Source: Paraburkholderia sp. Tr-20389 (lineage in GTDB: Bacteria > Pseudomonadota > Gammaproteobacteria > Burkholderiales > Burkholderiaceae). Taken from it: a stretch of DNA of 64,000 nucleotides. The stretch spans positions 62,001 to 126,000 of the forward strand of contig NZ_JAAGPD010000014.1 in the NCBI RefSeq assembly GCF_017104565.1, given 5' to 3'. The stretch's first letter is position 1; the number at the start of each line of letters is the position of its first letter. Below, in pieces: positions 4,483-61,901 of this stretch. Both the position numbers and the translations under genes were made by a program. The notes beneath the pieces are model-generated. The model saw only the letters and a list, made by a program, of their open reading frames with translations. It did not search any database and had not been told where the DNA came from.

Positions 4483-5526
4483 ATGCAAGACACGGTGAAT
4501 CTGCGTCGCCGCCGGCTAGTGGGAACGACGGCAGCGGGCCTCGGACTGCTCGAACTCGGGCTCGGCAATCTCGCGTTCGCACAGACGTCGAAAAGCGCCC
4601 ATGCCACGAAGAAAGCCGCGCACCATACGTCGTTCGACGCGATCAACCAGATCGACGCGGGCACGCTGAACATCGGCTACGTAGACACGGGTCCGAAAGA
4701 CGGGCAATCCGTCATCCTGCTGCACGGCTGGCCTTACGACATCTACAGCTTCGTCGATGTCGCGCCGATCCTCGCTGCGGCGGGCTATCGCGTGATCGTG
4801 CCTTATCTGCGCGGCTACGGCTCGACGCGCTTCCTGTCCAACGAGACGCCGCGCAACGGCCAGCAGGCCGCCGTCGCCGTCGACATCATCGCGCTGATGG
4901 ATGCGCTGAAGATCGATCAGGCCATCTTCGGCGCGTTCGACTGGGGCGCGCGCACCGCCTGCATCATCGCCGCCCTGTGGCCGCAGCGCTGCAAGGCGCT
5001 CGTCTCCGTGAGCGGCTATCTGATCGGCACGCCGGAAGCGAACCGCAAGCCGCTGCCGCCGAAGGCCGAATTCGAATGGTGGTATCAGTTCTACTTCGCG
5101 ACCGAACGCGGCGAAGCGGGCTACACGGCCAATCGCAACGACTTCAACCGGCTGATCTGGGAACTCGCTTCGCCCAAGTGGCATTTCGACGACTCCACGT
5201 ATCAGCGCACGGCGGCATCGTTCGCGAATCCCGATCATGTGGCCGTGGTGATCTCCAACTATCGCTGGCGCCTCGGCCTCGTGCAGGGCGAGCCGCAATA
5301 CGACGAGATCGAGGCCCGCATCGCGAAGCTGCCGACCATCTCCGTGCCGACCATCACGATGGAAGGCGACGCGAACGGCGCACCGCACCCGCCCGCAACC
5401 GCCTACGCAAAGATGTTCACGGGCAGGTATCAGCATCGCGACGTGAGCGGCGGCATCGGTCACAACCTGCCGCAAGAAGCGCCCAAGGCGTTCGCCGATG
5501 CCGTCATGCAAGTGGCACGCCTGTGA
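4483..5526 (+). CDS. Exported alpha/beta hydrolase with Asp nucleophile (epoxide hydrolase/dehalogenase type)
   Basis: Predicted 347 residues. The start at 4483 is fixed by AAGGAG at 4471-4476; an in-frame ATG at 4462 lies upstream of that site. A twin-arginine-like signal (LRRRRLVGTTAAGLGLLELG ... AFAQ) directs export. The fold shows the oxyanion motif LLHGWPYD, the elbow GAFDWGAR with Asp as nucleophile, an acid segment MEGDANGAPHPP and the catalytic His in GGIGHNLPQEAP. The Asp-Trp-Gly elbow is typical of epoxide hydrolases and haloalkane or haloacetate dehalogenases, not esterases. It lies 54 bases upstream of a response regulator and is probably co-transcribed with it. Confidence 0.85.
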   Translation: MQDTVNLRRRRLVGTTAAGLGLLELGLGNLAFAQTSKSAHATKKAAHHTSFDAINQIDAGTLNIGYVDTGPKDGQSVILLHGWPYDIYSFVDVAPILAAAGYRVIVPYLRGYGSTRFLSNETPRNGQQAAVAVDIIALMDALKIDQAIFGAFDWGARTACIIAALWPQRCKALVSVSGYLIGTPEANRKPLPPKAEFEWWYQFYFATERGEAGYTANRNDFNRLIWELASPKWHFDDSTYQRTAASFANPDHVAVVISNYRWRLGLVQGEPQYDEIEARIAKLPTISVPTITMEGDANGAPHPPATAYAKMFTGRYQHRDVSGGIGHNLPQEAPKAFADAVMQVARL

Positions 5527-48284: not shown

Positions 48285-48962
48285 ATGACTGTCTCTCCCC
48301 TCACAGACGTTGCATATCAAGGCATTCTGGCTTTCATCGACCGAAGCCGGCTGATGCCCGATGACAAACTGCCTGGTGAAAACCCCATGGCCGAATTGCT
48401 GGGCGTATCGCGACCTGTCGTGCGTCAGGCGCTGGCCCGGCTGAGGTCCGAAGGATGGGTGGTGTCGCGCAAAGGATCGGGAAACTATGTCGGTCAACCT
48501 CATTTGCGCAGCGCGCCGTTCGGTCCGATTCAAAGCGTCGACGAGGTGCGCGCGTTTCTCGAGTTTCGCTGTGTGATCGAAGGCGAATGCGCTGCATGGG
48601 CTGCCGTCAGCGAGGACCGCCAACTGCGCGATGAAATCAGCACACGCCGACGCATTCTCGAACTGGCGATCCGCCGCGGCACGGAAAGCATCGAGGAAGA
48701 CATCGCATTCCATGAAGCGATCGCGAAAGCCAGTGGCAACAAGTTCTATCTGATGACCATGATGGCCATCCGGGACCATCGGCGCATGGCGACGCATGTC
48801 ATACGCGAACGCTCAACTCAACCTCGACTGCGCCGGGTTCACGACATCCGTGAAGAGCATCTGCTGATCGACAAGGCGATTGCGAGAGGCGACCCGGACG
48901 AGGCGCGCCACGTCATGGTCTCTCACATCAGGAGCGGCATCGCGCGGCTGTTTGGGGAATGA
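48285..48962 (+). CDS. FadR-subfamily GntR regulator
   Basis: 225 residues: GntR winged helix 1-75 (DDKLPGENPMAELLGVSRPV, VRQALARLRSEGWVVSRKGS), then an all-helical FCD-type ligand domain with likely metal ligands (DIAFHEAIAKASGN, and His in DIREEHLLIDKAI and VSHIRSG). Such regulators sense sugar acids or organic acids. Divergent partner: the enolase-superfamily gene. Confidence 0.9.
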   Translation: MTVSPLTDVAYQGILAFIDRSRLMPDDKLPGENPMAELLGVSRPVVRQALARLRSEGWVVSRKGSGNYVGQPHLRSAPFGPIQSVDEVRAFLEFRCVIEGECAAWAAVSEDRQLRDEISTRRRILELAIRRGTESIEEDIAFHEAIAKASGNKFYLMTMMAIRDHRRMATHVIRERSTQPRLRRVHDIREEHLLIDKAIARGDPDEARHVMVSHIRSGIARLFGE

Positions 48963-49385
48963 TCGCGCGCCGTGTCCGGCTGCTCTGTCGATCGAGAAAT
49001 TCACCTGTAACTCGTCTGACTGAGGTGGCGCGCCGCGAGCCGCATTTCGCTTCGGTCAACGGTTTCCCCTTGAATTTTGAATACTCAAACAATACACAAA
49101 ATAAACATCTCCCCGATGCTTAACATGTGTGTTCAATACGGAGATGCGGCTCCCAGGAAGGTCACGTCTTGTGGTGAAAAGCCGCACGCCGACGCCCGTT
49201 TAACTTTAAATGTTGGTGCTGTTTGCACGACGACATGAATTAACCACCTTCTTTAATCAAAAGTACAAGTCAATTCGTGAATCGGGCATAACAGAACATT
49301 GGGACCTGATGGTTGCGATGAGGCGGCAACAATGGATTGTTGAGTTACCAGAACGTAACTATGTCACTGCCATGAGGGTAACAAG
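48963..49385. other. AT-rich left border of the accessory island
   Basis: 423 bases. From about 49070 composition turns AT-rich (TTGAATTTTGAATACTCAAAC, ACAAAATAAACAT), in contrast to the flanking chromosome. It must hold the promoter of the TIR/STAND operon; several AT-rich hexamers are possible and none stands out. A weak stem TGCGGCT/AGCCGCA (49145-49151, 49180-49186) is present. No tRNA or integrase remnant was seen. Confidence 0.5.
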
Positions 49386-50798
49386 ATGACCGTTCTAGCT
49401 GAATACGACCACGATATCTTCGTTAGCTACGCGCACCTCGACGATAAAGGTGCTCGTCCATGGGTGACAGCTCTGGTCACGACCCTCACGAACTATGGAT
49501 CGCAGAGACTCGGCCGCCCCCTTCGCGTCTGGATGGATCATGCGCTCGGCGGCAACCAGGCCATCACTCCCGAGATAATACAGGCGGTGCGGAGATCGGC
49601 GACGCTGCTCATCATCATGTCGCGCGGTTACCTGCAGTCGGAGTGGTGTCTCAAGGAACGCAACGCATTTTTGAATATCACCGCGGCTCGTATTGAAAAG
49701 CAACGTGTCTTTGTCGTCGATGCGTGGCGAACCGAGCGGAGTGAGATGCCCGTCGAACTTCGTGACCTGAAAGGCTTTGCGTTCTGGGTGCAAGACGACG
49801 GCGCGGGCGACATTGCGCGTCCGCTGGGTCTCATTGACGCACAGGAACGCCGGTATCACGAACGCCTTGTCGATCTGAGCGGTCAGTTGGCGAAGGCGCT
49901 GCAGTCGCTTGACTCAGCCGTAGCAAGTGATCAAGAGAACGTCGCCCCCTCTGCCGACGCAATCTTCATTGCACGCTCGACCGACGACCTGCTCGATCGT
50001 GAGGAGGAACTGTATGGTTACCTGAGCCAGGCGGGCATTGAGCGCCTGCCGCGAAAGTGGTATCCGGAGACGAGCGAAGATGCTTTCTGTGCCGCAATAA
50101 ATGCAGACTTACAACGTTCCTCGGTGATCGTGCAGTTGCTTGGAAAAACTCGCGGACGCAAGCCTGAATTCGGCGGCGAGCGCCGATACCCCGCGCTACA
50201 GAGCGACCTCGCCCTGGCAAGCGGAAAGCCTGTTCTGCGGTGGCGCGATCCGCGCGACGCTCCCTCCGACGTGAGCGACACCGTACATCGTGCATTACTG
50301 GAGGACGCTCGTTCATGCAGCTTCGAGGACTTTAAACGCGATGTCATCGAACTGGCGCGACGCGCGCCCCCGATGCAGAAGGCGAGAACTTCTGGCTTAT
50401 CGGTTTTTGTCAACGCGGACCATGATGACATGGAGGTGGCCCAACGGGTCGCGGAAATCCTCGCGGACAAAGGTGTGGAATGCGCTTGGCCCCTTCGTGA
50501 TGGAAGTCCCGAAAGAGTGCGACTCGATCTCGAAGAGAATCTGAAGGATTGCGATGGCCTGATTCTCGTGTATGGCGCGACTGAGCCGTCATGGGTTCGA
50601 GACCAGCTTCGGCAGGGGCGCAAGATCCTTAGCCAGCGCTCGCGCGCCCTGGCAGCGATGGCAATCTGCCTTGGTCCGCCGGACGAAAAGAAGGAAATCG
50701 CGATGGCCCTTCCCGGCCTGATCATGCTCGACGGCAGATCGAACCTAAGTGCAAACGCCTTGGAGACATTCCTGCTAAAGATGAGCGGTGGAGTCTGA
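49386..50798 (+). CDS. Protein with one intact and two degenerate TIR-like domains
   Basis: 470 residues. Residues 8-165 form a TIR domain: YDHDIFVSYAHLDDKGARPW, a central strand SATLLIIMSRGYLQ, and SEWCLKERNAF with Glu91 in the position of the catalytic Glu of NAD-cleaving TIRs. Residues about 190-325 (DAIFIARSTDDLLDREEEL) and 336-460 (SGLSVFVNADHDDMEVAQRV, DGLILVYGATEPSWVRDQ) repeat the fold without that Glu. Predicted role: effector of a defence or signalling system that degrades NAD+ or makes a nucleotide signal. GAGGG lies 7 bases before the ATG. The stop is followed after two bases by the STAND gene, so the two are translationally coupled. Confidence 0.85.
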   Translation: MTVLAEYDHDIFVSYAHLDDKGARPWVTALVTTLTNYGSQRLGRPLRVWMDHALGGNQAITPEIIQAVRRSATLLIIMSRGYLQSEWCLKERNAFLNITAARIEKQRVFVVDAWRTERSEMPVELRDLKGFAFWVQDDGAGDIARPLGLIDAQERRYHERLVDLSGQLAKALQSLDSAVASDQENVAPSADAIFIARSTDDLLDREEELYGYLSQAGIERLPRKWYPETSEDAFCAAINADLQRSSVIVQLLGKTRGRKPEFGGERRYPALQSDLALASGKPVLRWRDPRDAPSDVSDTVHRALLEDARSCSFEDFKRDVIELARRAPPMQKARTSGLSVFVNADHDDMEVAQRVAEILADKGVECAWPLRDGSPERVRLDLEENLKDCDGLILVYGATEPSWVRDQLRQGRKILSQRSRALAAMAICLGPPDEKKEIAMALPGLIMLDGRSNLSANALETFLLKMSGGV

Positions 50799-50800
50799 AC

Positions 50801-53800
50801 ATGACAACTGTCATCGAATTCAGCAACAGCCCTTATCCCGGTCTGCGCCCGTTTCGATATGACGAGTCCGACGTCTTCTTCGGGCGAGAAAGGCAGATCG
50901 ATCTACTCATCGAGCGGCTCGCGCGCAATCACTTTCTTGCAGTTATCGGTTCATCGGGTTGCGGAAAATCTTCGCTGGTCCGCGCGGGACTGCTGCCCGC
51001 ACTCAACGCGGGGTTCATGGCACAAGTCGGGTCGAGATGGCGAATCGTCGAGATGCGTCCGGGCGACCATCCTGTCCAGCGACTCACTTGCGCGCTAACG
51101 GATGCACATCTGTTTGGTCCAACACTTCCTGTCGAGGAAGCGAGCGCGTTCATCGAGGCCTGTCTGAGACGCGGACCACTCGGCATCGTCGAGGTCCTGA
51201 ATAGTGCTGATGCGCTGCGAGATCAGGCGCTGCTCCTACTGGTCGACCAGTTCGAGGAAACCTTCCGTTACAGCGAGCCCCGTCCCCTCGATGAGGCGGA
51301 AGCGTTCGTCGCGCTCATTCTTGCAAGCACCGCTCAACGGAATGTTCCGATCTATGTAGTTCTCACCATGCGCTCCGATTATCTGGGCGATTGTGCAGCT
51401 TTCCGTGATCTTGCCGAAGCTGTTAGCAATAGCCAGTATCTGACACCACGGCTCACCCGAGGCGAGCTAAAACTCGCCATCGAAGGTCCGGCCCGCGTTT
51501 TCGGCGGGCAGATCGATCCAAAGCTGCTGAATCGTCTCCTCAATGACTTCGACAACGAGGCAGACCAGTTACCTCTTTTGCAGCATGCGCTCGCCTGCAT
51601 GTGGGAACGGCAGGTCGATAGCGGTAGCGACTCGCCCCATCTCACGATGGCCGACTGCGAGGCCATCGGAGGCGTGCGCATGGCCCTCTCCAATCAGGCG
51701 GATGCGATTCTCGCGGAATTGCCATCTGATCAGCAGCACATCGCACAGGCAATGTTCAGGCGGCTCACGGGCTCCTCAAGCGGCCGGCGAGACGTGCGCG
51801 CACCCTCGCGCGTCGCAGAGGTGGCAGAGATCGCGTGCGTCGCGCCTGAAGAGGTCATCGCCGTTGTGGAGGCCTTTGCACGGACCGACCGCGGTCTCCT
51901 GCTCGTGCCCGAAGGACCACTTCGCGCTGACAGCATGCTGGACATCTGTCACGAGAGCCTGATCCGGCAGTGGACAAGACTGAGTGAGTGGTCCGAGAAA
52001 GAAGCGTTGTCCGCGGAGACATATCGGCTCCTCGAACAGACAGCCCGCCGCTGGAAGAAAGGTGAAGCGGCGCTTTGGAGTACGCCTGACCTCGAAAATG
52101 CCCTGGCGTGGGAGGCGAGGGAAAAGCCAACGGCCACGTGGGCGCGTCGCTACGGCGGCGATTTCGACCGCGCAATGGAGTTTCTCAGAGCTAGCGAAAC
52201 CAGACACCAGGCGGACGTGGCGGCGAAAGAGGCATCGCGGCGTCATCAACTGCGGCGCTACAGACAGACCGTTTATGGACTGATCGCCCTGCTTATTCTG
52301 ACCTCAGGCGCCGTTGCGATCTATTGGTATGCGACCCAAAGGGAATACGCAACCTATTACAACACGTTCGTTGAACATTGGGGCGTTCCACAGGGCTATG
52401 GGCGCCTCACTGAGGCGCAGGTGCGCGAGCGTCCACTGTCGATCAGGATCGTGACGCACGGCCGCTTCGGGCGCGTGTTGCGCATGGAAGCGGTGAACAG
52501 CTTCGGTGACTGCGAACCGGAAAACTCGATCACACAGCCGCTCGACAACGGCTCCGACAACAACCCGCTCACCAGCCAGAGAAGCCTTAACGAATGCAAA
52601 TGGGTCTACGTGCCCGATACGGACGAGCACGGCCTCATCTACGAGAAGGCGCTCAATCGTCACGACGAACTCGTTTGGGGATTGGCCTTTCCGCCACAAA
52701 CAGACAGGCAACATCAACAGGCGTACTACGTCGGTCCTGACGGCTCGCTAAAGGCACAAAAAAACATTCGCTTGCACAGCGTCGAGGTTGACTACGTGAT
52801 AGACAACAAAAACAGGCAACGTGACGGGCTACAGATTACTGAACGGTATTTCACGTACGCGGAAGGCGCCAAGAAGCCCGAGCCAGGAAAAGACAACGTA
52901 TATGGAGTCACGCGCGAACGGGACGCCAACGGGCTCGTCATTCGCGAGACGTCACTTGGAAGCGACGGGCGAACGATCGTGAACAATCAGGATGGCGTCG
53001 CTATTGAAACCGTGAAGCGCGACACGCTAGGGAATATGGTCGAGATCGCGGAGTGGGACAAATCCAGTCGCCCGGTGCTGTCGAAAAGCGGCTATCACCT
53101 GACGCGGATGACCTACGACGATAATGGCAATCGCATCTCTCAACGCTATTTCGGAACCGATGATCGTCCGGTGAGGCTCAAGGACGAAGGCTTTCATGAA
53201 ATACGGACCCGCTACGAACACGGGCATGCCGTCGAGAACGCGTTTTTCGACGTGGACGGTAGTCCGGTTCACGGCAACATGCTGGTACACAAGATCGTCA
53301 TGTCATACGACCGGGACCGTCTGATCGAAACGCGCATGTTCGATGTTCGCGGAAAGCCAGTAGCGGCTGCGGGAGGCACAGAGGCAGGTAAGCTCACTTA
53401 CGATCCCGACGGCAATATAGGGTCTGCATCGTTCGTCCATGCAGACGGGTCGCCTGCGTTCGATGTGATGGGTGTTCATCAGCGAATCTGGGTCTATGAC
53501 AGCAAGGGGCGTCCGGTCCGGGAAACGACGCTCGATATAGAGGGAAAACCCACTCGTGGAAAAGGCTGGACGATCGGCAGCAAAGTGTTGAGCTCTTTCG
53601 CGTACGGGACATTGCTTGGTTACGACGACCGCGGAGAAACGACGTCGATTGTGTTCATCGATCGAAACGGTGCGCCCCTATCGGGTAACCATCGTTACGC
53701 AAAAATGCGCTTCAAATACGATGATCGAGGCAATCAGACCGAGACTGCATATTTCGACGCGCTTGATCATCCCGTCCTGCTAAGCGAGACAGGATACGCG

Positions 53801-55453
53801 AAGATGGTGTCAACGTACGATGATCGACGCAATGTCATCAAGGAAGAACTGTACGATGAGTATGGTCAGCGGACGATTGGCAATAAGGGCTATGCCACGC
53901 TCGAGAAAACCTACGACGAACGCGACCGGATCGCCGAACTTCGCTATTTCGGCATGGACAACAAACCGATTCTACTGGGCGGCCGCTACGTCGCGTTGAA
54001 GAGGAGATATGACGGCCGCGACAATCTCATCGAGGAAACGCTTCTCGATATCGATCATCGCCCCGTTGCGCAGGGCCAAGCGGGCGTGCGATGGAAGTTT
54101 GACGACCGCGATCGCATGATCGAGGAAGCCTACTTCGATACGAACGGAAAACCGTTCGTCGCCGAGAAAGGCTACGCGATGTTGCGTAACATCTTCGACG
54201 CCGATGGCTCGACCTTCACCCAAAGCCAATTCGACGCTGACGGACATCACATCGCCGAACGCGACGGATGTTGGGCACTCAGATTCACGAAAAACGCACG
54301 CGGAAGCTTGCTCGACCAGACATGTCTCGGCGCCGATATGAAACCGGTCCGCTCTGCCAACGGCTTCAGTATCAGAACGGTCGAATATGACGCGCACGGG
54401 AACAGGACAGAGGATGCATACCGTGACGAGCATGGGCAACTACTGCAGCTTCCGAATGCGTATGCCGTGGCCGCTCAAACGTACAATCAGTTCGACGATG
54501 TCACAGGCCAGGATTTCCGCGCTACCGATGGGAAGCTGGTGATGCAATCGTTTGGTTACGCCAGCATGCGTAGTAAATATGACGGCACCAATCTGGTCGA
54601 AGAATCGTACTATGGCACTGATGAGAAGCTTGCGCTTCGACCGGACGGTTACGCAATGGCTCGCTATGCGTATGACGATCGTGACAACCAGATCGAAACC
54701 GCTTACCTCGGTACAGACGCGAAACCGCGGCTTCAGCCGGAAGGTTATGCGATCGTGCGTAGACAATTCGATCGCAACAACAATCAGACCGAACTGGCTT
54801 TCTATGATGAGATGGGGCGCTTGATTCAACAGTCCGACGGCTATGCGATCGAGCGTGGAAAATTCGACAGCCGGGGAAATCAGATCGAGTACGCGTACTT
54901 TGGGGTCGACGAAATGCCAGTGCAGTCGATACGAGGATACGCGTCTGTCAGATCGCACTACGACATGCACGATCACCAGATTAGCGAAGCATATTTCGAC
55001 CGATCTGGCGCGCGCACGTGTCCAGATATCGTCTACACACGATACTGCACGAAGGAGTTTGCCTATGACGCCATCGGCAGACTGAAATCAATACGGTACG
55101 TGGGCCCGAACGGGGATGTCCTCGTCACGGCGACATTTGATCTGGATGCAAATGAAAAAACACCCGCCGTGCGTTATGCAGGTACGCATGGTGAGGCGCT
55201 CGAATACCATGAGGTCGTGCTGAACGTCGACCCGAACAGTCAGGCGGAAAAGCTGCTTAAAAAAGGCGACATCATCGTGAGTTATGCCGGATTCCGAATC
55301 GAATCTTCCGAAACGATGACGCGCCTGACCCGTCAATCTCTAGGGGATTCCCGCGAGCTCAAGGTTCTCCGAGATGGCAAGCTGATCTCGCTGCAAGTCA
55401 AGCCGGGACGGCTCGGGTTCACCGATGGCACACAGCTTTTAGTTGCACGATAA
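50801..55453 (+). CDS. nSTAND1 NTPase - transmembrane - YD-like repeat - PDZ receptor
   Basis: 1550 residues. 10-30: the nSTAND1 entry motif NSPYPGLRPFRYDESDVFFG. P-loop GSSGCGKSS (50-58), Walker B LLLLVDQFEE (144-153), Arg/Ser sensor TMRSDYLGD, and the winged helix to about 470 ending in LDICHESLIRQWTRLSEW. One membrane helix at about 490-511 follows a basic stretch RRHQLRRYRQ, so the NTPase should be cytoplasmic. From about 700 to 1455 there are roughly 22 repeats of about 32 residues, consensus YDDRGNxIExAYFDxDGxPV and GYA. Residues 1465-1540 look like a PDZ domain (EKLLKKGDIIVSYAGFRI, ELKVLRDGKLISLQVKPG). It resembles a receptor that senses outside and signals to the coupled TIR protein. 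Confidence 0.85.
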   Translation: MTTVIEFSNSPYPGLRPFRYDESDVFFGRERQIDLLIERLARNHFLAVIGSSGCGKSSLVRAGLLPALNAGFMAQVGSRWRIVEMRPGDHPVQRLTCALTDAHLFGPTLPVEEASAFIEACLRRGPLGIVEVLNSADALRDQALLLLVDQFEETFRYSEPRPLDEAEAFVALILASTAQRNVPIYVVLTMRSDYLGDCAAFRDLAEAVSNSQYLTPRLTRGELKLAIEGPARVFGGQIDPKLLNRLLNDFDNEADQLPLLQHALACMWERQVDSGSDSPHLTMADCEAIGGVRMALSNQADAILAELPSDQQHIAQAMFRRLTGSSSGRRDVRAPSRVAEVAEIACVAPEEVIAVVEAFARTDRGLLLVPEGPLRADSMLDICHESLIRQWTRLSEWSEKEALSAETYRLLEQTARRWKKGEAALWSTPDLENALAWEAREKPTATWARRYGGDFDRAMEFLRASETRHQADVAAKEASRRHQLRRYRQTVYGLIALLILTSGAVAIYWYATQREYATYYNTFVEHWGVPQGYGRLTEAQVRERPLSIRIVTHGRFGRVLRMEAVNSFGDCEPENSITQPLDNGSDNNPLTSQRSLNECKWVYVPDTDEHGLIYEKALNRHDELVWGLAFPPQTDRQHQQAYYVGPDGSLKAQKNIRLHSVEVDYVIDNKNRQRDGLQITERYFTYAEGAKKPEPGKDNVYGVTRERDANGLVIRETSLGSDGRTIVNNQDGVAIETVKRDTLGNMVEIAEWDKSSRPVLSKSGYHLTRMTYDDNGNRISQRYFGTDDRPVRLKDEGFHEIRTRYEHGHAVENAFFDVDGSPVHGNMLVHKIVMSYDRDRLIETRMFDVRGKPVAAAGGTEAGKLTYDPDGNIGSASFVHADGSPAFDVMGVHQRIWVYDSKGRPVRETTLDIEGKPTRGKGWTIGSKVLSSFAYGTLLGYDDRGETTSIVFIDRNGAPLSGNHRYAKMRFKYDDRGNQTETAYFDALDHPVLLSETGYAKMVSTYDDRRNVIKEELYDEYGQRTIGNKGYATLEKTYDERDRIAELRYFGMDNKPILLGGRYVALKRRYDGRDNLIEETLLDIDHRPVAQGQAGVRWKFDDRDRMIEEAYFDTNGKPFVAEKGYAMLRNIFDADGSTFTQSQFDADGHHIAERDGCWALRFTKNARGSLLDQTCLGADMKPVRSANGFSIRTVEYDAHGNRTEDAYRDEHGQLLQLPNAYAVAAQTYNQFDDVTGQDFRATDGKLVMQSFGYASMRSKYDGTNLVEESYYGTDEKLALRPDGYAMARYAYDDRDNQIETAYLGTDAKPRLQPEGYAIVRRQFDRNNNQTELAFYDEMGRLIQQSDGYAIERGKFDSRGNQIEYAYFGVDEMPVQSIRGYASVRSHYDMHDHQISEAYFDRSGARTCPDIVYTRYCTKEFAYDAIGRLKSIRYVGPNGDVLVTATFDLDANEKTPAVRYAGTHGEALEYHEVVLNVDPNSQAEKLLKKGDIIVSYAGFRIESSETMTRLTRQSLGDSRELKVLRDGKLISLQVKPGRLGFTDGTQLLVAR

Positions 55454-55866
55454 GGGCGCAAGAAGGGCGCGGTGACTACGATATCCAGCTGGCAGACCGT
55501 GCAACGCGCCAGCGCTACCGGCTCGGCAGCCTGCGTTTTGGCGCCCCTGTCGCTATTACAAACGCCGATGCGCGACAAGGTCCAATCTATGCGCAAGACC
55601 GCGTGACAATCGGTGTGATTGTGCATGGCGACAGCACAGTTAGCGGCCACGGCCCAGGAGTAACACCTCTGCTCACCGGACCGTCGTCGCTGCTCAAGCC
55701 CATGCATGGGCCGCGATCGAATCTGACAGCTATTTTCCGCCTCCGAGCCATTCAAGCACCTTCTCTCCAACCGACGTTTATCGAACGGTCGCGGCGTACT
55801 GTCACTTCGCTGAGTCGCCAGGACTCACATCTTCGACCCAACGTTTTGATGGCTTTTCCCATCTGA
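55454..55866 (+). pseudogene. C-terminal remnant of a DUF4438 gene
   Basis: Frame 1 from the base after the STAND stop reads RAQEGRGDYDIQLADRAT, LGSLRFGAPVAITNADAR and GVIVHGDSTVSGHGPGVTPL, then LLTGPSSLLKPMHGPRSNLT, which I recognise as the C-terminal half of DUF4438 proteins. No start or N-terminal half is present, and the similarity fades by about 55740 while the frame runs to 55866. The homology begins essentially at the STAND stop codon, as if the island had replaced the 5' half of a resident gene. Confidence 0.6.
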
Positions 55867-56261
55867 ACAGCGATAACCAGTCATATCGGCTTCTATCTGG
55901 TGGGCACGGCGTAAAGAAATGGCAGTGTCGATTTCGGTCCTCTCGCAACACCCGTCATCCCGGCGCCGCTGGAAACGCCCGCTCGGCCGTCGCGGAAGTT
56001 CAGACTCCCCGTTTGCGAGGCCACTTCAAGTGCTTTTCTGTCGTTCGGACGTGCACGATCGCGAATTTCCCGGTTTGTGTCAACGAACGCGTACTCTCGA
56101 CCCGTTGCTGCCGGTCATTGACGCTGAAGGCATCGACCGCTTTCGAAGACAGAGCGGTCATCCACGCAGACACCGACAGCACCACTTCTGGGTCACCAAT
56201 CGCCGAAGTTTGTGAATACTGCATATTCGAAGCAACGCCCGCTCGAACGTTGTGTTAAGAA
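55867..56261. other. Non-coding debris between the DUF4438 remnant and the membrane gene
   Basis: 395 bases with broken open frames on both strands and no recognisable protein or RNA gene. It reads as decayed sequence. Confidence 0.5.
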
Positions 56262-56915
56262 TCAATTTGCAACGCTGGTTGTCCGTTGATTGGCAATGTG
56301 GGTGTGATTGCCAATATGCGTTCTCCCCTTCCAAAGAATAAGAATGCAAAAAAATAGGGTAAGGCTTCCTACCGCAACATGCTTGATGCTGAGAGGGTAT
56401 TCAAATCCCACGGTGTCCAAGGTGAAGTAGGCCAAAGCAAGCCAAATGCATAACGTAAACAAATTGACAATCTGATTTGTCTTTGATACGGAGATGTTGC
56501 TCGGCCCTGTGACATGCTTTTCAAAGAAACTGTCTCGCGATGGACGGACTAGAATAGTCTTGTAGAGCGGCCCTGTGACCTTATCTTCAAGAATGTCTAC
56601 GTGGTTTTCCCAATTCTCCTGCCATTTCTTGCTGCCGCGATTAACTTGAAACCAAGCGAATGTAAATAGAAATCCAATGCATGCAACGATAAAGGCCAAG
56701 AATTTCTTATCGTCCAAATTTTGCGCGTTCAGGATAATGAAATAACCAGCGAACGCAGCAGCAATAAGCGTCCAAAAATACGTCGCCCGCTTCCAATAGA
56801 GTTCGATCTCAAATTTTCGTATATCGAGGGCGTGTTCTAACGATGCTTTCAATTTTTCTTTGTTCTCCGGCTCGATGCCGAAGTCACTCTTATACTTTTT
56901 TTCGTCGATCTTCAT
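56262..56915 (-). CDS. Four-helix membrane protein (possibly RipA-like or SLATT-like)
   Basis: 217 residues from ATG 56915 with GGGGA upstream; an earlier ATG (56957) adds 14 residues. There are two pairs of membrane helices, about 45-64/70-88 (YFWTLIAAAFAGYFIILN, FLAFIVACIGFLFTFAWF) and 160-180/190-208, separated by a basic soluble stretch. The N-terminus YWKRATYFWTLIAAAF resembles, from memory, the RipA-type octameric membrane proteins; SLATT-type pore effectors are an alternative. Codons are AT-richer than the chromosomal average, suggesting acquisition. It lies downstream of, and in the same direction as, the deoxyribosyltransferase-like gene. Confidence 0.7.
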   Translation of the reverse strand: MKIDEKKYKSDFGIEPENKEKLKASLEHALDIRKFEIELYWKRATYFWTLIAAAFAGYFIILNAQNLDDKKFLAFIVACIGFLFTFAWFQVNRGSKKWQENWENHVDILEDKVTGPLYKTILVRPSRDSFFEKHVTGPSNISVSKTNQIVNLFTLCIWLALAYFTLDTVGFEYPLSIKHVAVGSLTLFFCILILWKGRTHIGNHTHIANQRTTSVAN

Positions 56916-57055
56916 GGATCCCCAGTCTTGATTTGGAACTGACTGGCATGCAGCCAATGCGTCATATTTCCGCTTTGAGAAGAATGCCTCAATAACTTCT
57001 TAAACTGACTATTGCATCCACCGATTAATAGACTATGCGATATCGCTTTAATTCG

Positions 57056-58021
57056 CTATAGAGGTTCGATTTCGCGCGGCTTACGATTCGTCAATTCGAT
57101 CAGTCTGTTTGTGAGTTTCTTGCGCAGATCTGTCTGATTGACGTATTCTGGGCAATTGTAGCCAGACAAATCGAAGTGAATCCCCGTCCCCGACTTCCGG
57201 AAAAGAATAACCCTTTTCCCTAACGCATGCGCATAGCCAACTTCGTAATAGACATTCGGTCGCGCCCCTGTGAGGTCCGCAAACAAGAATTCACTGGTCC
57301 GTATCTCGTTCAGGACTCGCTCACTGATCAACCCCTCGTGTTCGATGTCATCCGCGCGAAGAGCACGAACTTCAAATTGCTGGAATATATTGCGCACAGT
57401 TTCAACCGTATCTGTCAATTCCGGATTCGACGGGTCCATCCACATCATAATGAATGCGGTACCAATCCGATATTTCGAGCTGTCATTCTGCGTCCTGGAT
57501 ACCACTTGGCCCGCGCTAGCCGGAGATGCTTCGACCAGCTTTAGAACCAGACTTACCTTGTCCAGCTGAGCATAGAATTCCGATTCAGCTTGATCAGGAG
57601 GCAAACCTGATAACTCGGACTGGTCAGCGGGACGAAAACCAAGTACGACGTCTTCGTCGTGAATGACGCTTGCTTCCTGGAATATGTAGCGCCTAAGACG
57701 AAGAGCGGCGCGCATCGCCTTTGCGGCAATCTTCACGTCGAGTTGATCCTCGCTGCCGGTCAACGGCGATACTCGCGCTGCTTCTGCCAAGGCAGCGCAC
57801 GGGATCAGCAATCGATCCACCAACGCCATCGCAAGTCCACGAAGATCTTCAGACAACTGATCCCAATAAAAATTTGGGTCACTACTCGTGTAGCCTCCGC
57901 CGAAGGGCGTCGGGGCCTCTTGCGAAACGGCACATTTCCGAGCCTCATCAAAATACTTTGCAGCCGCATCCCACAGCTCTCGAAACTGCGTCCGAATCTC
58001 CGAACCCGCGACGTCGCTCAT
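57056..58021 (-). CDS. Nucleoside 2-deoxyribosyltransferase-like protein with helical N-terminus
   Basis: 321 residues. Residues 1-175 are mostly helical and unfamiliar. Residues 185-310 form a Rossmann-like domain of the nucleoside deoxyribosyltransferase/TIR-like group: YRIGTAFIMMWMDPSN, FLFADLTGARPNVYYEVGYA and HALGKRVILFRK, with Glu260 in the catalytic position. Such domains act on nucleotides or NAD-like molecules and are common in conflict systems. GGGGG lies shortly before the ATG. Gap of 140 bases to the membrane gene. Confidence 0.75.
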   Translation of the reverse strand: MSDVAGSEIRTQFRELWDAAAKYFDEARKCAVSQEAPTPFGGGYTSSDPNFYWDQLSEDLRGLAMALVDRLLIPCAALAEAARVSPLTGSEDQLDVKIAAKAMRAALRLRRYIFQEASVIHDEDVVLGFRPADQSELSGLPPDQAESEFYAQLDKVSLVLKLVEASPASAGQVVSRTQNDSSKYRIGTAFIMMWMDPSNPELTDTVETVRNIFQQFEVRALRADDIEHEGLISERVLNEIRTSEFLFADLTGARPNVYYEVGYAHALGKRVILFRKSGTGIHFDLSGYNCPEYVNQTDLRKKLTNRLIELTNRKPREIEPL

Positions 58022-58024
58022 AAA

Positions 58025-58303
58025 TTAGCCCCCATTCCGCCGTCCATTTAAAATCTCGATTTGACGCGCCAGAGCGTCACTGCCGATATAGTGTAGTAGA
58101 AGCGCGCGGGTGAGCGGTTTGTTTTCGGATACGAAGGCGCCGTTTGAATGTCGCATGAAGCGTCGAGACGAACAACGCTTCGTGGCCGACCAGCGCCCCC
58201 GGCGGAGCTCGATGATCGCCTCGGGTGCGCGATTCATGCAAAGGGCATAAAGCGACCCACTTCCGCCGTTCGAAACGATGCGCGTATAACGGACCGCTTC
58301 CAA
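58025..58303 (-). CDS. Small uncertain open reading frame upstream of the deoxyribosyltransferase-like gene
   Basis: Up to 92 residues from a TTG start; internal ATGs could give 70 or 43 residues (the shortest begins MRHSNGAFVSENKPLTRALL). It ends three bases before the next gene, and its last codons contain that gene's Shine-Dalgarno, a typical coupled layout. No domain recognised. It may instead be the tail of a lost gene. Confidence 0.35.
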   Translation of the reverse strand: MEAVRYTRIVSNGGSGSLYALCMNRAPEAIIELRRGRWSATKRCSSRRFMRHSNGAFVSENKPLTRALLLHYIGSDALARQIEILNGRRNGG

Positions 58304-58379
58304 GGTGTAGCGGCCGTTGTGGCATTCCTAGACTTCGGCTCTGCCAATGGCGGCGTTGCTGAAGATGCCTTTTATAAGG

Positions 58380-59318
58380 TCAAATCTTCTCCCACTTCAG
58401 CTTACTTCCATCTACCCAAAGCTTGCATAACGCCGTGCATGGCGCGCATTCAAGTGCCGTAGCAGTGATGATGACTACGCCGCCAACCTTGGGTAGCGTC
58501 GGAGGTCTCCAGAAATTTCCGCTAGGTGGCGCAGACAAGCTTATCCAATCCAACCCGGGCTGCTCCGATGAAATCGGTTCTCCGTACATGGCCAAACTAA
58601 CGAGCCTTTCCTCTCCCGGGTTAAGACTGAACGCGTCCATACGAAGCCATCGTTCGGGGCTGACAGCATTCATGCCTGTTGCCTCGAAGTGAATCTTGCA
58701 ATTCGTTAAATACGCGTTTCCAGTATTTTTTATCCCAACCAGTACGGTCTTCGTAATATTGACGGGGCCGTGTTTCTGAGCTTCCACATAGCTACCGTCC
58801 TGACCAATCACGATAGAAAGCTTATGTACTGTATTTACACGAGCTTGTGCCGAATCAGATTCGCCCATTTTGGCAATCTCGTCCGGACTCGCTTCGGCAG
58901 TAGAGGATCCGCGTCGTACGTACACTGTCCGGGCCGTCACCTTCCCGAAACCTTTCGGTAAATAGAACGGGCGAGCCTGCGGCGGAATCGTAAAAAGTCC
59001 GAGAGTCTGCCCTCTAAAGTCAACTGAGCGATATGCAAACTGTATAGGGCGATTGACTTTTGCATTTACGAACTGTTGCAGTCGAGAGTCGTCGATATCA
59101 TTGTCTAAGCCGACGATCTCCTTTGATCCGTCACGTACGCCGATCACGATATATGCTGTCGTTGTCCTCCATGCGTTGGCAAACGCCAAAATATCTTTCA
59201 GCAAGGAAGACTTGCTATCGTCGTCCGCGTTTTCGAACGGATACTGCTGAAGCTTGAAGTCCAGCGCATCGCCTTCGCTGCTGTAGAGCAACCTTTCTAT
59301 AAGGAAATCGTCTTCCAT
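58380..59318 (-). CDS. AlbA_2 (Schlafen-type) protein with C-terminal beta domain
   Basis: 312 residues. Residues 1-150 form the AlbA_2 nucleic-acid-binding domain: EGDALDFKLQQYPFE, LKDILAFANAWRTTTAYIVI and GVRDGSKEIVGL, ending in VYVRRGSSTAEASPDEIAKM. Residues about 165-312 are an Ig-like beta region (VLVGIKNTGNAYLTNCKIHF, NPGEERLVSLAMYGEP). AlbA_2 domains occur in transcription-linked and antiphage proteins. Single gene with its own upstream gap. Confidence 0.82.
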   Translation of the reverse strand: MEDDFLIERLLYSSEGDALDFKLQQYPFENADDDSKSSLLKDILAFANAWRTTTAYIVIGVRDGSKEIVGLDNDIDDSRLQQFVNAKVNRPIQFAYRSVDFRGQTLGLFTIPPQARPFYLPKGFGKVTARTVYVRRGSSTAEASPDEIAKMGESDSAQARVNTVHKLSIVIGQDGSYVEAQKHGPVNITKTVLVGIKNTGNAYLTNCKIHFEATGMNAVSPERWLRMDAFSLNPGEERLVSLAMYGEPISSEQPGLDWISLSAPPSGNFWRPPTLPKVGGVVIITATALECAPCTALCKLWVDGSKLKWEKI

Positions 59319-59544
59319 AGTGACCCTGTCCCGGTACCGAAGGTTAGTGTGTTGACGACACTATAGAGCAGCCATTCGTGTCGATTGATTTATGGCCGCC
59401 CGAACCCTCTTCGCGGCAGTAGGCGTGAGTTTGGAATTCGAGCTCATGGGAAATCAGCATGACCTGATTCCTCATTCTTTCACAGGCTCGCAACTTACGA
59501 ACGCGCGAACGTGCCAAAGCCGAAGATCGCGACACTTCGCGAAT

Positions 59545-60249
59545 TTAGTCCCGTTCGGCCTCTAGGAATCGCGTTTGAGCTGGGGTGTTAAGAAACGCAT
59601 ACGATTCATAGTGCTTTTCCAGCAACTCCACAAACAAGTCCACGGTGCGTCGAACGCCATCGAGTCGGAGTTCCAAGTCGGCTGAACGCCCTCTCGCTCC
59701 CACTGAAGCGGGGCTTACCCGACCATGAGCCACTTGATGACGCTTTTGGACCACCTCGTCAACGTAGAAGCGATCTGGACTGTTTATTATCGAATCGGTG
59801 GCAATGCCGAGATAGCTTGCGATATCGGCAATAGTCTCCATTTCGGAGTTTTGCAAATGAGGGGCGAAGACGGAACTCTCTATTCGACATGCACGGCCGT
59901 CATAGATGGCATCGACAAAATCCAACCGTTTTTTCCATTTTCTCTGCGACTGAGCCTCTGATAGAGCTTTAAACTGAGCATTCATGGCCGTAGGCAAGAA
60001 CCGCAGTGACAAATCCAAGTTTTGAAGCCCAAGGGCAGACGCAGATCGAAGAAAGCTCTCCGTAGCTTCGTTTAACGACTGCTCTAGTGCGCCGTATAGA
60101 TGGACATAAAACAGCCCGCGAAGAATTTTCACTTCTTCGGTATCTACTGGCGGCACATCAGCCGATTCGATCGCCTTGATATGGGACAATAACGTTCGTA
60201 TTTCCCGAAATCTTTCGGCCATCGGCGTGCGCGGAATTGACAGTGCCAT
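59545..60249 (-). CDS. HEPN-type putative RNase, MAE_28990/MAE_18760-like
   Basis: 234 mostly helical residues. The HEPN catalytic motif R-x4-H is present as RHQVAH (Arg170, His175), late in the chain. An N-terminal bundle (LRGLFYVHLYGALEQSLNEA) matches the MAE_28990/MAE_18760 family. Expected activity: RNA cleavage on infection. The ATG lies two bases after the DUF262 stop, so translation is coupled to its partner. Confidence 0.8.
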   Translation of the reverse strand: MALSIPRTPMAERFREIRTLLSHIKAIESADVPPVDTEEVKILRGLFYVHLYGALEQSLNEATESFLRSASALGLQNLDLSLRFLPTAMNAQFKALSEAQSQRKWKKRLDFVDAIYDGRACRIESSVFAPHLQNSEMETIADIASYLGIATDSIINSPDRFYVDEVVQKRHQVAHGRVSPASVGARGRSADLELRLDGVRRTVDLFVELLEKHYESYAFLNTPAQTRFLEAERD

Positions 60250-60251
60250 TT

Positions 60252-61307
60252 TTATAGCAAATAGTCGCGCACCAATTCAATCCTTCCACTCACCATTCGT
60301 TTGTTGTTCGTTCCGGCCGTTGTAAGCTTTTTCAGCTCTTTATTACTAACGAGGTCCCGTAATTTTTTTGTATCAGGGTCGATTCCGGCCTGAATGGCCA
60401 AGGCAGTTCCTACAGATAGCGCCTCAAAAAGATTGGCGGGCGTGATAGTGGACTGACCTCGTGTTATTCCCTTCGGAAAGGCTGTCGCTAAGGCCGACAA
60501 AACTTTCTTGAATAAGTTTATTTTGGAACTAGGGATGAGTTTGCTCGAATTTTCTTTCATATAGTTATTGAGAAAATCTTTGACGCTCTTTTCGAAATTA
60601 TTGTAGTTATAGAGATACGCAAAGTATCTGAGAACATACTCCTCAGAAGTGCCATTCTTAGTGTCACCCTCCCGTAGTCGCACTACCTGCTTGAAATCAT
60701 TAAGGGCCGCTATCTTTCTTAATGAATCATTGAAAGGTCCGCGATAGATACAGTTCCGTATCTCTTGGTTGGTCAAAAGAACGCCACCCGTATTCAGTCG
60801 CTCAAAAAGATCGAAGCGAACGTTGAGGTCGCTCTTGTCGTTAAGAACAGTGACTCGAATCGGTCGCGTCATAAACATGAGCTGCATCGATTTTGGAAGC
60901 TCGCTAAACGTCAGATCGTTTAATGCGCTCAGTTTTTCAAGACCAGCGACTCCAAGAGGGGCTTTTCGGTTAATGGTTCCAAGCAGCTTCGAGCTATCCC
61001 CGACAAAGTGGGCAATCGTCGATAGACGTTGAACCCCATCGACGATTTCCCATGTTGCGTCAGGATTCGTTGCCATAAACAGGCTCGGCACCGGGATTCC
61101 AAGGAAAATCGACTCTATAAGCTCCGATTCACGCGCCTCATCCCATACGAACTGCCGCTGGTACTCCGGCGGAACGAAGATAGCGCCCTCGACGAACATG
61201 TCGTAAATCTGCCGGATGGTCATGTCGTAACTGTCGAACGACACTAGGCGGCGTTCACTGTCCAGCTGCTGTTGGAGTTCCACGAAGGAGAAGGGCTTTT
61301 GTGACAT
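60252..61307 (-). CDS. DUF262 (ParB/Srx-like) domain protein
   Basis: 351 residues. The N-terminal half has the DUF262 motifs PPEYQRQFVWDEARESELIE and SIFLGIPVPSLF, and WEIVDGVQRLSTI, a variant of the DGQQR motif with Val in place of the first Gln. The C-terminal half is helical and lysine-rich. DUF262 proteins are NTP-dependent nucleases or sensors, seen in GmrSD-type systems and alone with HEPN partners. First gene of a two-gene unit with the HEPN protein. Confidence 0.85.
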   Translation of the reverse strand: MSQKPFSFVELQQQLDSERRLVSFDSYDMTIRQIYDMFVEGAIFVPPEYQRQFVWDEARESELIESIFLGIPVPSLFMATNPDATWEIVDGVQRLSTIAHFVGDSSKLLGTINRKAPLGVAGLEKLSALNDLTFSELPKSMQLMFMTRPIRVTVLNDKSDLNVRFDLFERLNTGGVLLTNQEIRNCIYRGPFNDSLRKIAALNDFKQVVRLREGDTKNGTSEEYVLRYFAYLYNYNNFEKSVKDFLNNYMKENSSKLIPSSKINLFKKVLSALATAFPKGITRGQSTITPANLFEALSVGTALAIQAGIDPDTKKLRDLVSNKELKKLTTAGTNNKRMVSGRIELVRDYLL

Positions 61308-61901
61308 ATGTTAACGATCTTGTAGTGTCAGTTTCTGCGTCCGCTTGACCTGTCGGTCTTTTGGGCTATATGTGACCAAGCATTATCTCTGGGCGTAGAA
61401 TAGCCGAAACAATACAACACCGGGCCGAACTGCACTAGGGGCGCATGGTGGGTGAAACGTCGGACGGGCGCCGCCCTTGCCAGCGTCTACGCAAACTGGG
61501 GAACGGCCGACGGATCGTCAGAGCGAATGACTGCCATCGGGGTGAACTTGCCGTTTGAATGACCATTTTCGCATACGGGCGACTGGCCGAATCTGGGCCG
61601 ATAATTGCCAATCCGTTTGCAATCGGCGAGCGCGTTGCGCGAGTGGCAGCGCACAACCCCACTCATTACCATCTGGGCGTATCCACTGCTCCGGTACTCC
61701 TTGGACTTGTAGCCCGAGAGAATCCCGTTCGAATGCCTGTCTGGCGTTTTCGCACTGTTATAGACGCGACCGGTAACGAGCGGCACGCCGAACGCAGCGG
61801 CGGATAGCAGCGATGGAATAGATCATCACGCCTGGCTGTTCTGGTAAAGCGAACCGCAGAGACGTCGCCCATTTGCGTGGTACCCAACCAGGATAGTCAT
61901 C
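61308..61901. other. Non-coding right border of the accessory island
   Basis: 594 bases between the DUF262 start and the DUF3455 gene. Short frames exist on both strands but none shows conserved protein sequence or a ribosome-binding site. The DUF262 promoter must lie near 61310-61400. No integrase, attachment site or tRNA was seen. Confidence 0.45.

Follow-up and report, generated by a model that had tools for sequence, protein, structure and literature searches.

STAND proteins are ligand-gated, nucleotide-dependent oligomerising switches, and in bacterial immunity the STAND and TIR systems known so far mostly detect phage products in the cell interior. TIR domains with the glutamate of an SxWCxxE motif can cut NAD+ once clustered, and the pairing of STAND with TIR is typical of immunity. 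Here we analysed a window of 64,000 nucleotides from the soil bacterium Paraburkholderia sp. Tr-20389 (contig NZ_JAAGPD010000014.1, positions 62,001 to 126,000), which carries a two-gene operon in which a TIR-family protein (P0001) is followed by a protein (P0002) combining an nSTAND1 NTPase, one transmembrane (TM) helix, YD-type repeats and a PDZ domain. In the accessible portions of two reports, nSTAND1 conflict proteins have an effector adjoining or fused to the switch and exchangeable C-terminal sensors, with FGS/CLec and NPCBM named among them (PMC8195603, PMC10907252), and some sensors are predicted to be periplasmic (PMC10907252). P0002 shares the NTPase family with these proteins, and the sensors described in these portions include neither a YD nor a PDZ type combined with TIR. 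TIR plus nSTAND1-TM-WD40 pairs, as on a plasmid of Caballeronia sp. SBC2 (WP_165106803.1 / WP_165106800.1), have the same gene order, a TIR protein of similar length, nSTAND1 and the one helix after the NTPase, but their sensor is WD40, whereas the window has a juxtamembrane domain, YD repeats and PDZ.

Further systems were compared with the operon. Avs has the STAND switch in common with P0002, which has no Avs match. Thoeris likewise contains a TIR protein, but the partner in the window is nSTAND1-TM-YD instead of ThsA-type, and the similarity of P0001 to ThsB was weak. Rhs proteins and teneurins appear from structure prediction to share two-strand repeats of YD type with P0002, which differs in its 32-residue units, its lack of the Rhs core motif and its STAND/TIR output. 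The likeness to Toll-like receptors lies in a membrane receptor with a repeat ectodomain and a cytoplasmic TIR; it is an analogy only, since the chain order is opposite, their ectodomain is built of leucine-rich repeats instead of YD repeats, and no shared ectodomain descent is implied. Single-chain TIR-TM-YD proteins (L077, L085 and others) share TIR, helix, juxtamembrane domain and repeats with the operon, but have no STAND switch. Against the STAND systems of PADLOC 2.0, P0002 matched only the P-loop stretches of mad3 and mad8 (E 1.3e-4 and 1.1e-3); an earlier prediction made from this DNA had called the system a candidate undescribed one, and no PADLOC 2.0 model covers P0002 beyond the P-loop. 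A literature search for RHS or YD repeats in combination with TIR found none, a weak negative in that most subscription papers lay outside its coverage. The operon may be an effector-STAND pair whose sensor is of a new class, and the wider cassette to which the sensor belongs may deserve more.

The stop codon of P0001 (50798) and the ATG of P0002 (50801) were separated by two bases, head to tail, and both open reading frames and their spacing were as originally predicted. We examined eight close relatives (G054, G004, G073, G993, G272, G312, the Caballeronia SBC2 plasmid and Piscinibacter sp. MQ-18), setting aside a second Caballeronia plasmid match and the weaker matches of the whole-protein search. 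A TIR gene lay directly upstream of the nSTAND1 gene in the window and in all eight, so that these close homologues stayed paired, and an upstream TIR gene, nSTAND1 and one helix occurred together in all nine. When 99 genomes of relatives were searched with whole P0002, two same-genus nSTAND1 relatives were found (G054 and G004), whose upstream TIR genes aligned with P0001 over its length; no full-length P0002 orthologue was among the 99, the matches outside the window genome being to nSTAND1 and PDZ only. The nSTAND1 identity to P0002 was 46-49% in G004/G054 and 37.6% in the Caballeronia plasmid. Across 399 genomes of the order, an nSTAND1 profile matched eight times at E <= 1e-40, in six genomes. 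Five of these matches were strong (E <= 1e-118: window, G073, G993, G272 and G312), all with a TIR gene directly upstream, and of the three weaker ones (8e-53 to 4e-51) one had such a gene (G991; a 493-residue gene product, TIR-type by eye). Moreover, TIR and nSTAND1 protein distances correlated across nine pairs (r 0.93; none of 5000 permutations as high), a value to which shared species history would add.

The sensor after the helix was WD40 in six of the eight relatives (G054, G004 and G073 by Pfam, G993 and G272 by reading, Caballeronia by annotation), and in Piscinibacter it consisted of YD repeats. One helix followed nSTAND1 in the seven non-YD relatives and at a second locus of the window genome (8/8). 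The view that a membrane helix before the sensor sets P0002 apart from other STAND proteins, which the original prediction had put forward, was ruled out, because the six WD40 relatives carry the helix too. Since the helix is the norm among TIR/nSTAND1 relatives, the YD/PDZ sensor is the variation, a module in place of WD40. The trees (starred forks 2/10 and 2/7) did not settle the place of the window, and WD40-first or YD-first could not be deduced from them. The second locus of the window genome (L028, G000:C77, 6061-11411) encodes a SIR2-like + TIR protein followed by nSTAND1-TM-WD40, so the NADase-type partner seems exchangeable; by eye, G053 (L029, 3898-9145) has a similar pair. In G312 the pair is reduced (L139 1708-4828, reverse-complement coordinates) to a 352-residue TIR protein and a 689-residue nSTAND1-TM protein in which no more than a short charged tail follows the helix.

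The YD sensor was also found away from this gene pair. A repeat profile matched 6 of 398 genomes of the phylum; the best match besides the window (G598) was a one-chain TIR-TM-repeat protein, its TIR assigned by eye, that shares the ectodomain start, helix region included, with P0002, and the matches in G229 and G707 looked like ordinary RHS proteins. Relatives of the G598 protein comprised two further TIR-TM-repeat proteins (G914, G921) and a version with a leader peptide (G928). In 84,980 species genomes, 49 YD loci were detected by a single scan, some of whose reading frames were cut by contig ends or of uncertain start. Within their first 330 residues Pfam found TIR_2 in 19 (Microvirga included), protein kinase in six, nSTAND1 in two, Polysacc_synt in two, FHA in one and AAA_35 in one. 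The two-gene form of the window recurred in Piscinibacter (L119; TIR gene ending at 4787, nSTAND1-TM-YD gene starting at 4791), with no PDZ match in the nSTAND1-TM-YD protein, and in Microvirga massiliensis a single chain runs from TIR through nSTAND1 and the helix to YD repeats. The existence of one-chain TIR-TM-YD proteins indicates that evolution joins the YD sensor to a TIR output also without a STAND switch.

A regular expression for the juxtamembrane motif missed many members, and a hidden Markov model (HMM) of the helix and juxtamembrane domain was used in its place, built from 13 TIR-type seeds that were excluded from the test set, with Z set to 1000. This TIR-only HMM detected 16 of 37 other YD-type proteins at an independent E-value (i-E) < 1e-3, with values down to 6e-29 in kinases, 1.5e-19 in the FHA protein, 1.7e-18 in Microvirga, 5.5e-14 in the window, 2e-12 in Thiomargarita and 1.3e-7 in Piscinibacter; none of five WD40 versions was detected. 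Helix, juxtamembrane domain and YD repeats are, judging by these sequence comparisons, a transplantable cassette. YD repeats were again followed by PDZ in a sequence from Thiomargarita and one from Smithellaceae, each truncated at a contig end.

The Microvirga chain is preceded, at a distance of about 200 bases, by a gene (L097, 3314-4375) for another TIR-type protein (353 residues, by eye) with one helix. Five Ser/Thr kinase-type proteins from Bacteroidales-type metagenome-assembled genomes (L100, L110, L111, L118 and L124) have the same helix, juxtamembrane domain and YD repeats, and apparently form an unnamed kinase receptor group. The Lachnospiraceae proteins L094 and L105 combine YD repeats with a membrane part of many helices and of the polysaccharide transport type. 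In G759, a YD protein with a leader peptide (L035, 337-3171) adjoins a PDZ + alpha/beta hydrolase protein (by eye) as separate chains.

P0001 matched Pfam TIR_2 at 72.1 bits (cut-off 28), and its AlphaFold2 (AF2) model contained three beta/alpha domains (mean predicted local distance difference test score, pLDDT, 72.3; predicted TM-score 0.41). The original description of P0001 as a three-TIR protein was thus right for the fold but not for Pfam: both the TIR profile match and the SxWCxxE glutamate (E91), which we take to be the catalytic residue of TIR, were found in domain 1 only and in neither domain 2 nor domain 3. E91 was invariant in all five aligned rows, the window counted. DUF4062 matched domain 2 weakly (18.2 bits, under the cut-off of 24.7). 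Foldseek matches of the model included the TIRs of SPARTA TIR-APAZ, SARM1, TLR2 and the plant NLRs RUN1 and RPP1, among general non-TIR Rossmann-type matches.

In P0002, the nSTAND1 domain has a Walker A motif, GSSGCGKS (residues 50-57), and a Walker B motif, LLLVDQFEE (145-153). The predicted chain of nSTAND1, one helix, about 22 YD-like repeats and PDZ was borne out, the AF2 model giving 23 consecutive two-strand units over residues 701-1434 by our count (pLDDT mostly 65-95) and a unit HMM finding 14 units above 8 bits. Pfam RHS_repeat (cut-off 22) passed on the repeat stretch alone (28.8 bits) and fell below within the whole protein (20.7). The best Foldseek matches of the repeats were Rhs/YD (E 2e-26) and a teneurin-like protein (E 2e-20), with low TM-scores of 0.14-0.25, and the predicted fold resembles Rhs/teneurin YD repeats. 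DPxG is the C-terminal core motif of Rhs proteins, and DPxG[hydrophobic] had no match in P0002. The PDZ domain scored just under the PDZ_2 cut-off (26.6 bits against 27) and likewise below that of PDZ_6; its best NCBIfam matches were RseP and DegP, far under their cut-offs. A sequence search of the PDB gave a single non-significant match, and searches with the repeats gave none in PHROGs or in a phage collection. Viral contigs gave no confirmed match to the G598 ectodomain and four weak loci with the repeat alignment (L073-L076, 33%).

We further investigated which side of the membrane the sensor faces. Lysine and arginine numbered six in the 15 residues before the P0002 helix and one in the 15 after it. 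The same count was made in 24 of the 50 YD-type proteins (49 loci and the window), multi-helix, leader-only and no-called-helix proteins being excluded; positive charges were more frequent before the helix in 20, equal in four and fewer in none. At least 7 of the 49 loci had, by eye, a leader peptide followed by repeats. Cysteine pairs 16-20 residues apart numbered 12 against 1.6 expected in 13 Pseudomonadota/Verrucomicrobiota ectodomains (maximum of 6 in 2000 shuffles), eight of which carried them and five of which did not, whereas 23 ectodomains of other, mostly gut-anaerobe taxa had 13 against 11.1 expected. This test was post hoc, in that the taxon groups were chosen after the spacing had been noticed and the ectodomain starts were set by hand. 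The original placement of the repeats beyond a membrane helix was supported by these data, and a sensor outside the cytoplasm is what the single helix, the positive-inside charge, the secreted versions and the cysteine pairs point to. The coordinates of the features are given in Table 1.

Table 1. Features of the TIR/nSTAND1-TM-YD-PDZ operon, in window coordinates
Feature	Coordinates	Strand	Basis
Gene 1 (P0001), TIR-family protein, 470 residues	49386..50798	+	open reading frame; TIR_2 E 7.6e-20
TIR domain 1, residues ~9-146	49410..49823	+	Pfam TIR_2 at 11-134
Glu91 codon of P0001	49656-49658	+	
TIR-like domain 2, residues ~192-325	49959..50360	+	AF2 secondary structure; without SxWCxxE motif
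TIR-like domain 3, residues ~339-469	50400..50792	+	AF2 secondary structure; without SxWCxxE motif
Gene 2 (P0002), nSTAND1-TM-YD-PDZ protein, 1550 residues	50801..55453	+	open reading frame
nSTAND1 NTPase, residues 11-421	50831..52063	+	Pfam PF20703 E 1.3e-99, 334.9 bits, cut-off 27.1
Single TM helix, residues 490-508	52268..52324	+	mean Kyte-Doolittle 1.94
Helix and juxtamembrane domain, residues 492-577, YYxxFVExWGVPxG region	52274..52531	+	HMM from 13 TIR-type proteins, i-E 5.5e-14
23 YD/RHS-like units of ~32 residues, residues 701-1444	52901..55132	+	unit HMM, AF2 model, Foldseek
Cysteine pair 1157/1175 in one repeat, proposed disulphide	54269..54325	+	cysteine spacing
C-terminal PDZ domain, residues 1472-1534	55214..55402	+	PDZ_2 E 7.4e-6
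Operon-bearing interval that shows no DNA similarity to three 15-kb stretches, taken from two same-genus genomes	48956..61765	.	

Gene order, pairing, the conserved P-loop and TIR glutamate, the helix, the conservation of the cassette and the charge and cysteine data that speak for a sensor on the outside were seen directly, and on balance we consider the operon to be, somewhat probably, a two-gene inner-membrane receptor with a periplasm-facing sensor, in which the STAND switch triggers TIR activity; oligomerisation, TIR activity, the ligand and a purpose in defence are the parts of this receptor that we infer. One helix would hold P0002 in the inner membrane, with nSTAND1 in the cytoplasm and the YD-type beta sensor and PDZ in the periplasm. 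With the sensor there, it is most economical to suppose that nSTAND1 assembles in response to an event at the envelope. The sensor would be bound or disturbed by an envelope agent, such as part of an incoming phage, a protein delivered through contact, or wall or outer-membrane material that is damaged; nSTAND1 would then exchange nucleotide and oligomerise. Its assembly at the inner membrane would cluster the co-encoded P0001, and the first domain of the clustered P0001 would act on NAD+, so that the cell is stopped or killed. Several observations weigh against such a receptor. The second nSTAND1 copies of G073 and G993 (the latter a fusion whose start resembles DUF4062 and which has an internal stop) and the nSTAND1 relatives on Persicobacter and Runella plasmids have no TIR gene upstream; the repeat region is rare, being found in just 1 of the order's 399 genomes, namely that of the window; the cassette also occurs on kinases and in secreted form, and neither use has to be immune; the helices of L091 and L104 are weak; and L079 (6246-9629), a Hyphomonadaceae protein with TIR, juxtamembrane domain and YD repeats, lacks a clear helix (best mean hydropathy 1.16), which indicates that the YD sensor may exist also without crossing the membrane.

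The main rival of a defence receptor is a non-immune receptor for the envelope or for contact, whose cassette senses neighbours, wall state or surfaces on behalf of any fused output and which regulates physiology in the window. We regard it as rather unlikely, and it draws on the same cassette being joined to Ser/Thr kinases and FHA (6 and 1 of the 49 loci), on YD repeats in polysaccharide transport-type proteins (2 of the 49) and secreted Clostridia proteins, and on teneurins, which are cell-contact receptors with one helix and the repeats outside, being among the closest folds by Foldseek. However, the outputs in the window, Piscinibacter and Microvirga are the STAND and TIR combination typical of immunity, the operon adjoins Schlafen, HEPN/GmrSD-type and second TIR-like genes in a low-GC stretch, and the repeat region is patchily distributed within the order. 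It is improbable that the hydrophobic stretch does not pass through the membrane, or is an anchor only, with the repeats left on the cytoplasmic side, where ordinary STAND sensors lie: the WD40 modules that serve the sister pairs as sensor are usually cytoplasmic, the WD40 relative L022 shows the reverse charge bias, and L079 led us to raise the chance of this alternative slightly, but the charge bias in 20 of 24 proteins, the leader peptides on secreted versions and the cysteine pairs in Pseudomonadota/Verrucomicrobiota all speak for the other side of the membrane, as do the periplasmic PDZs to which that of P0002 is nearest. Least probable of all is a chance fusion that attached Rhs-like repeats to a STAND gene and has no function under selection; the rarity within the order would fit it, and YD repeats are common recombination material, but helix, juxtamembrane domain and repeats were kept together across several phyla, the same architecture recurred in Piscinibacter and P0002 has no Rhs C-terminal core motif.

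Beyond the operon itself, the same sensor on TIR, kinases and other outputs in other bacteria suggests that Toll-like receptors form a bacterial class about which little is known. We propose tentatively, as a possibility somewhat short of an even chance, that this is an undescribed broad class of single-pass 'Toll-like' receptors, in which a mobile cassette monitors the periplasm or the cell surface and controls a cytoplasmic output, whether TIR, kinase or TIR plus STAND; the window would hold the STAND-gated form, sensing invasion before DNA entry. If so, a receptor with a periplasmic sensor and cytoplasmic TIR or STAND outputs would register an attack at the envelope; bacteria would have in it a counterpart of animal Toll receptors in layout and of teneurins in ectodomain fold. 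The recurring cassette would offer many natural test cases, and its one-chain TIR versions are simple enough to study.

The original prediction that the operon opens an island of conflict genes was borne out as to the run of conflict-type neighbours, but not as to the edges of an island. DNA similarity ended at 48955 (G013) or 48794 (G020) and resumed at 61766 on another G020 contig; as the flanking shared segments span just 1-2 kb, an island is suggested, without established edges or a demonstrated empty site. GC content was 0.59 in the TIR gene, 0.60 in the STAND part, 0.55 in the ectodomain and 0.50 at 56-61.8 kb, against 0.63 at 1-48 kb. The downstream genes encode an 8xMP membrane protein (56262-56957), a CAP12-TIR/Nuc_deoxyrib_tr-like protein, Schlafen AlbA_2, HEPN and GmrSD_N. 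The second of these (57056-58021, minus strand; 321 residues) has a C-terminal nucleoside deoxyribosyltransferase/CAP12-TIR-like part and matched the PADLOC 'Effector' TIR at E 3.4e-10. At 59545-61307 on the minus strand, the HEPN (RiboL-PSP) gene lies two bases from the GmrSD_N/DUF262 gene; the latter matched NsnA (E 3.7e-69) and PD-T4-2_A (5.9e-51) of PADLOC, and the two perhaps form a separate two-gene defence unit.

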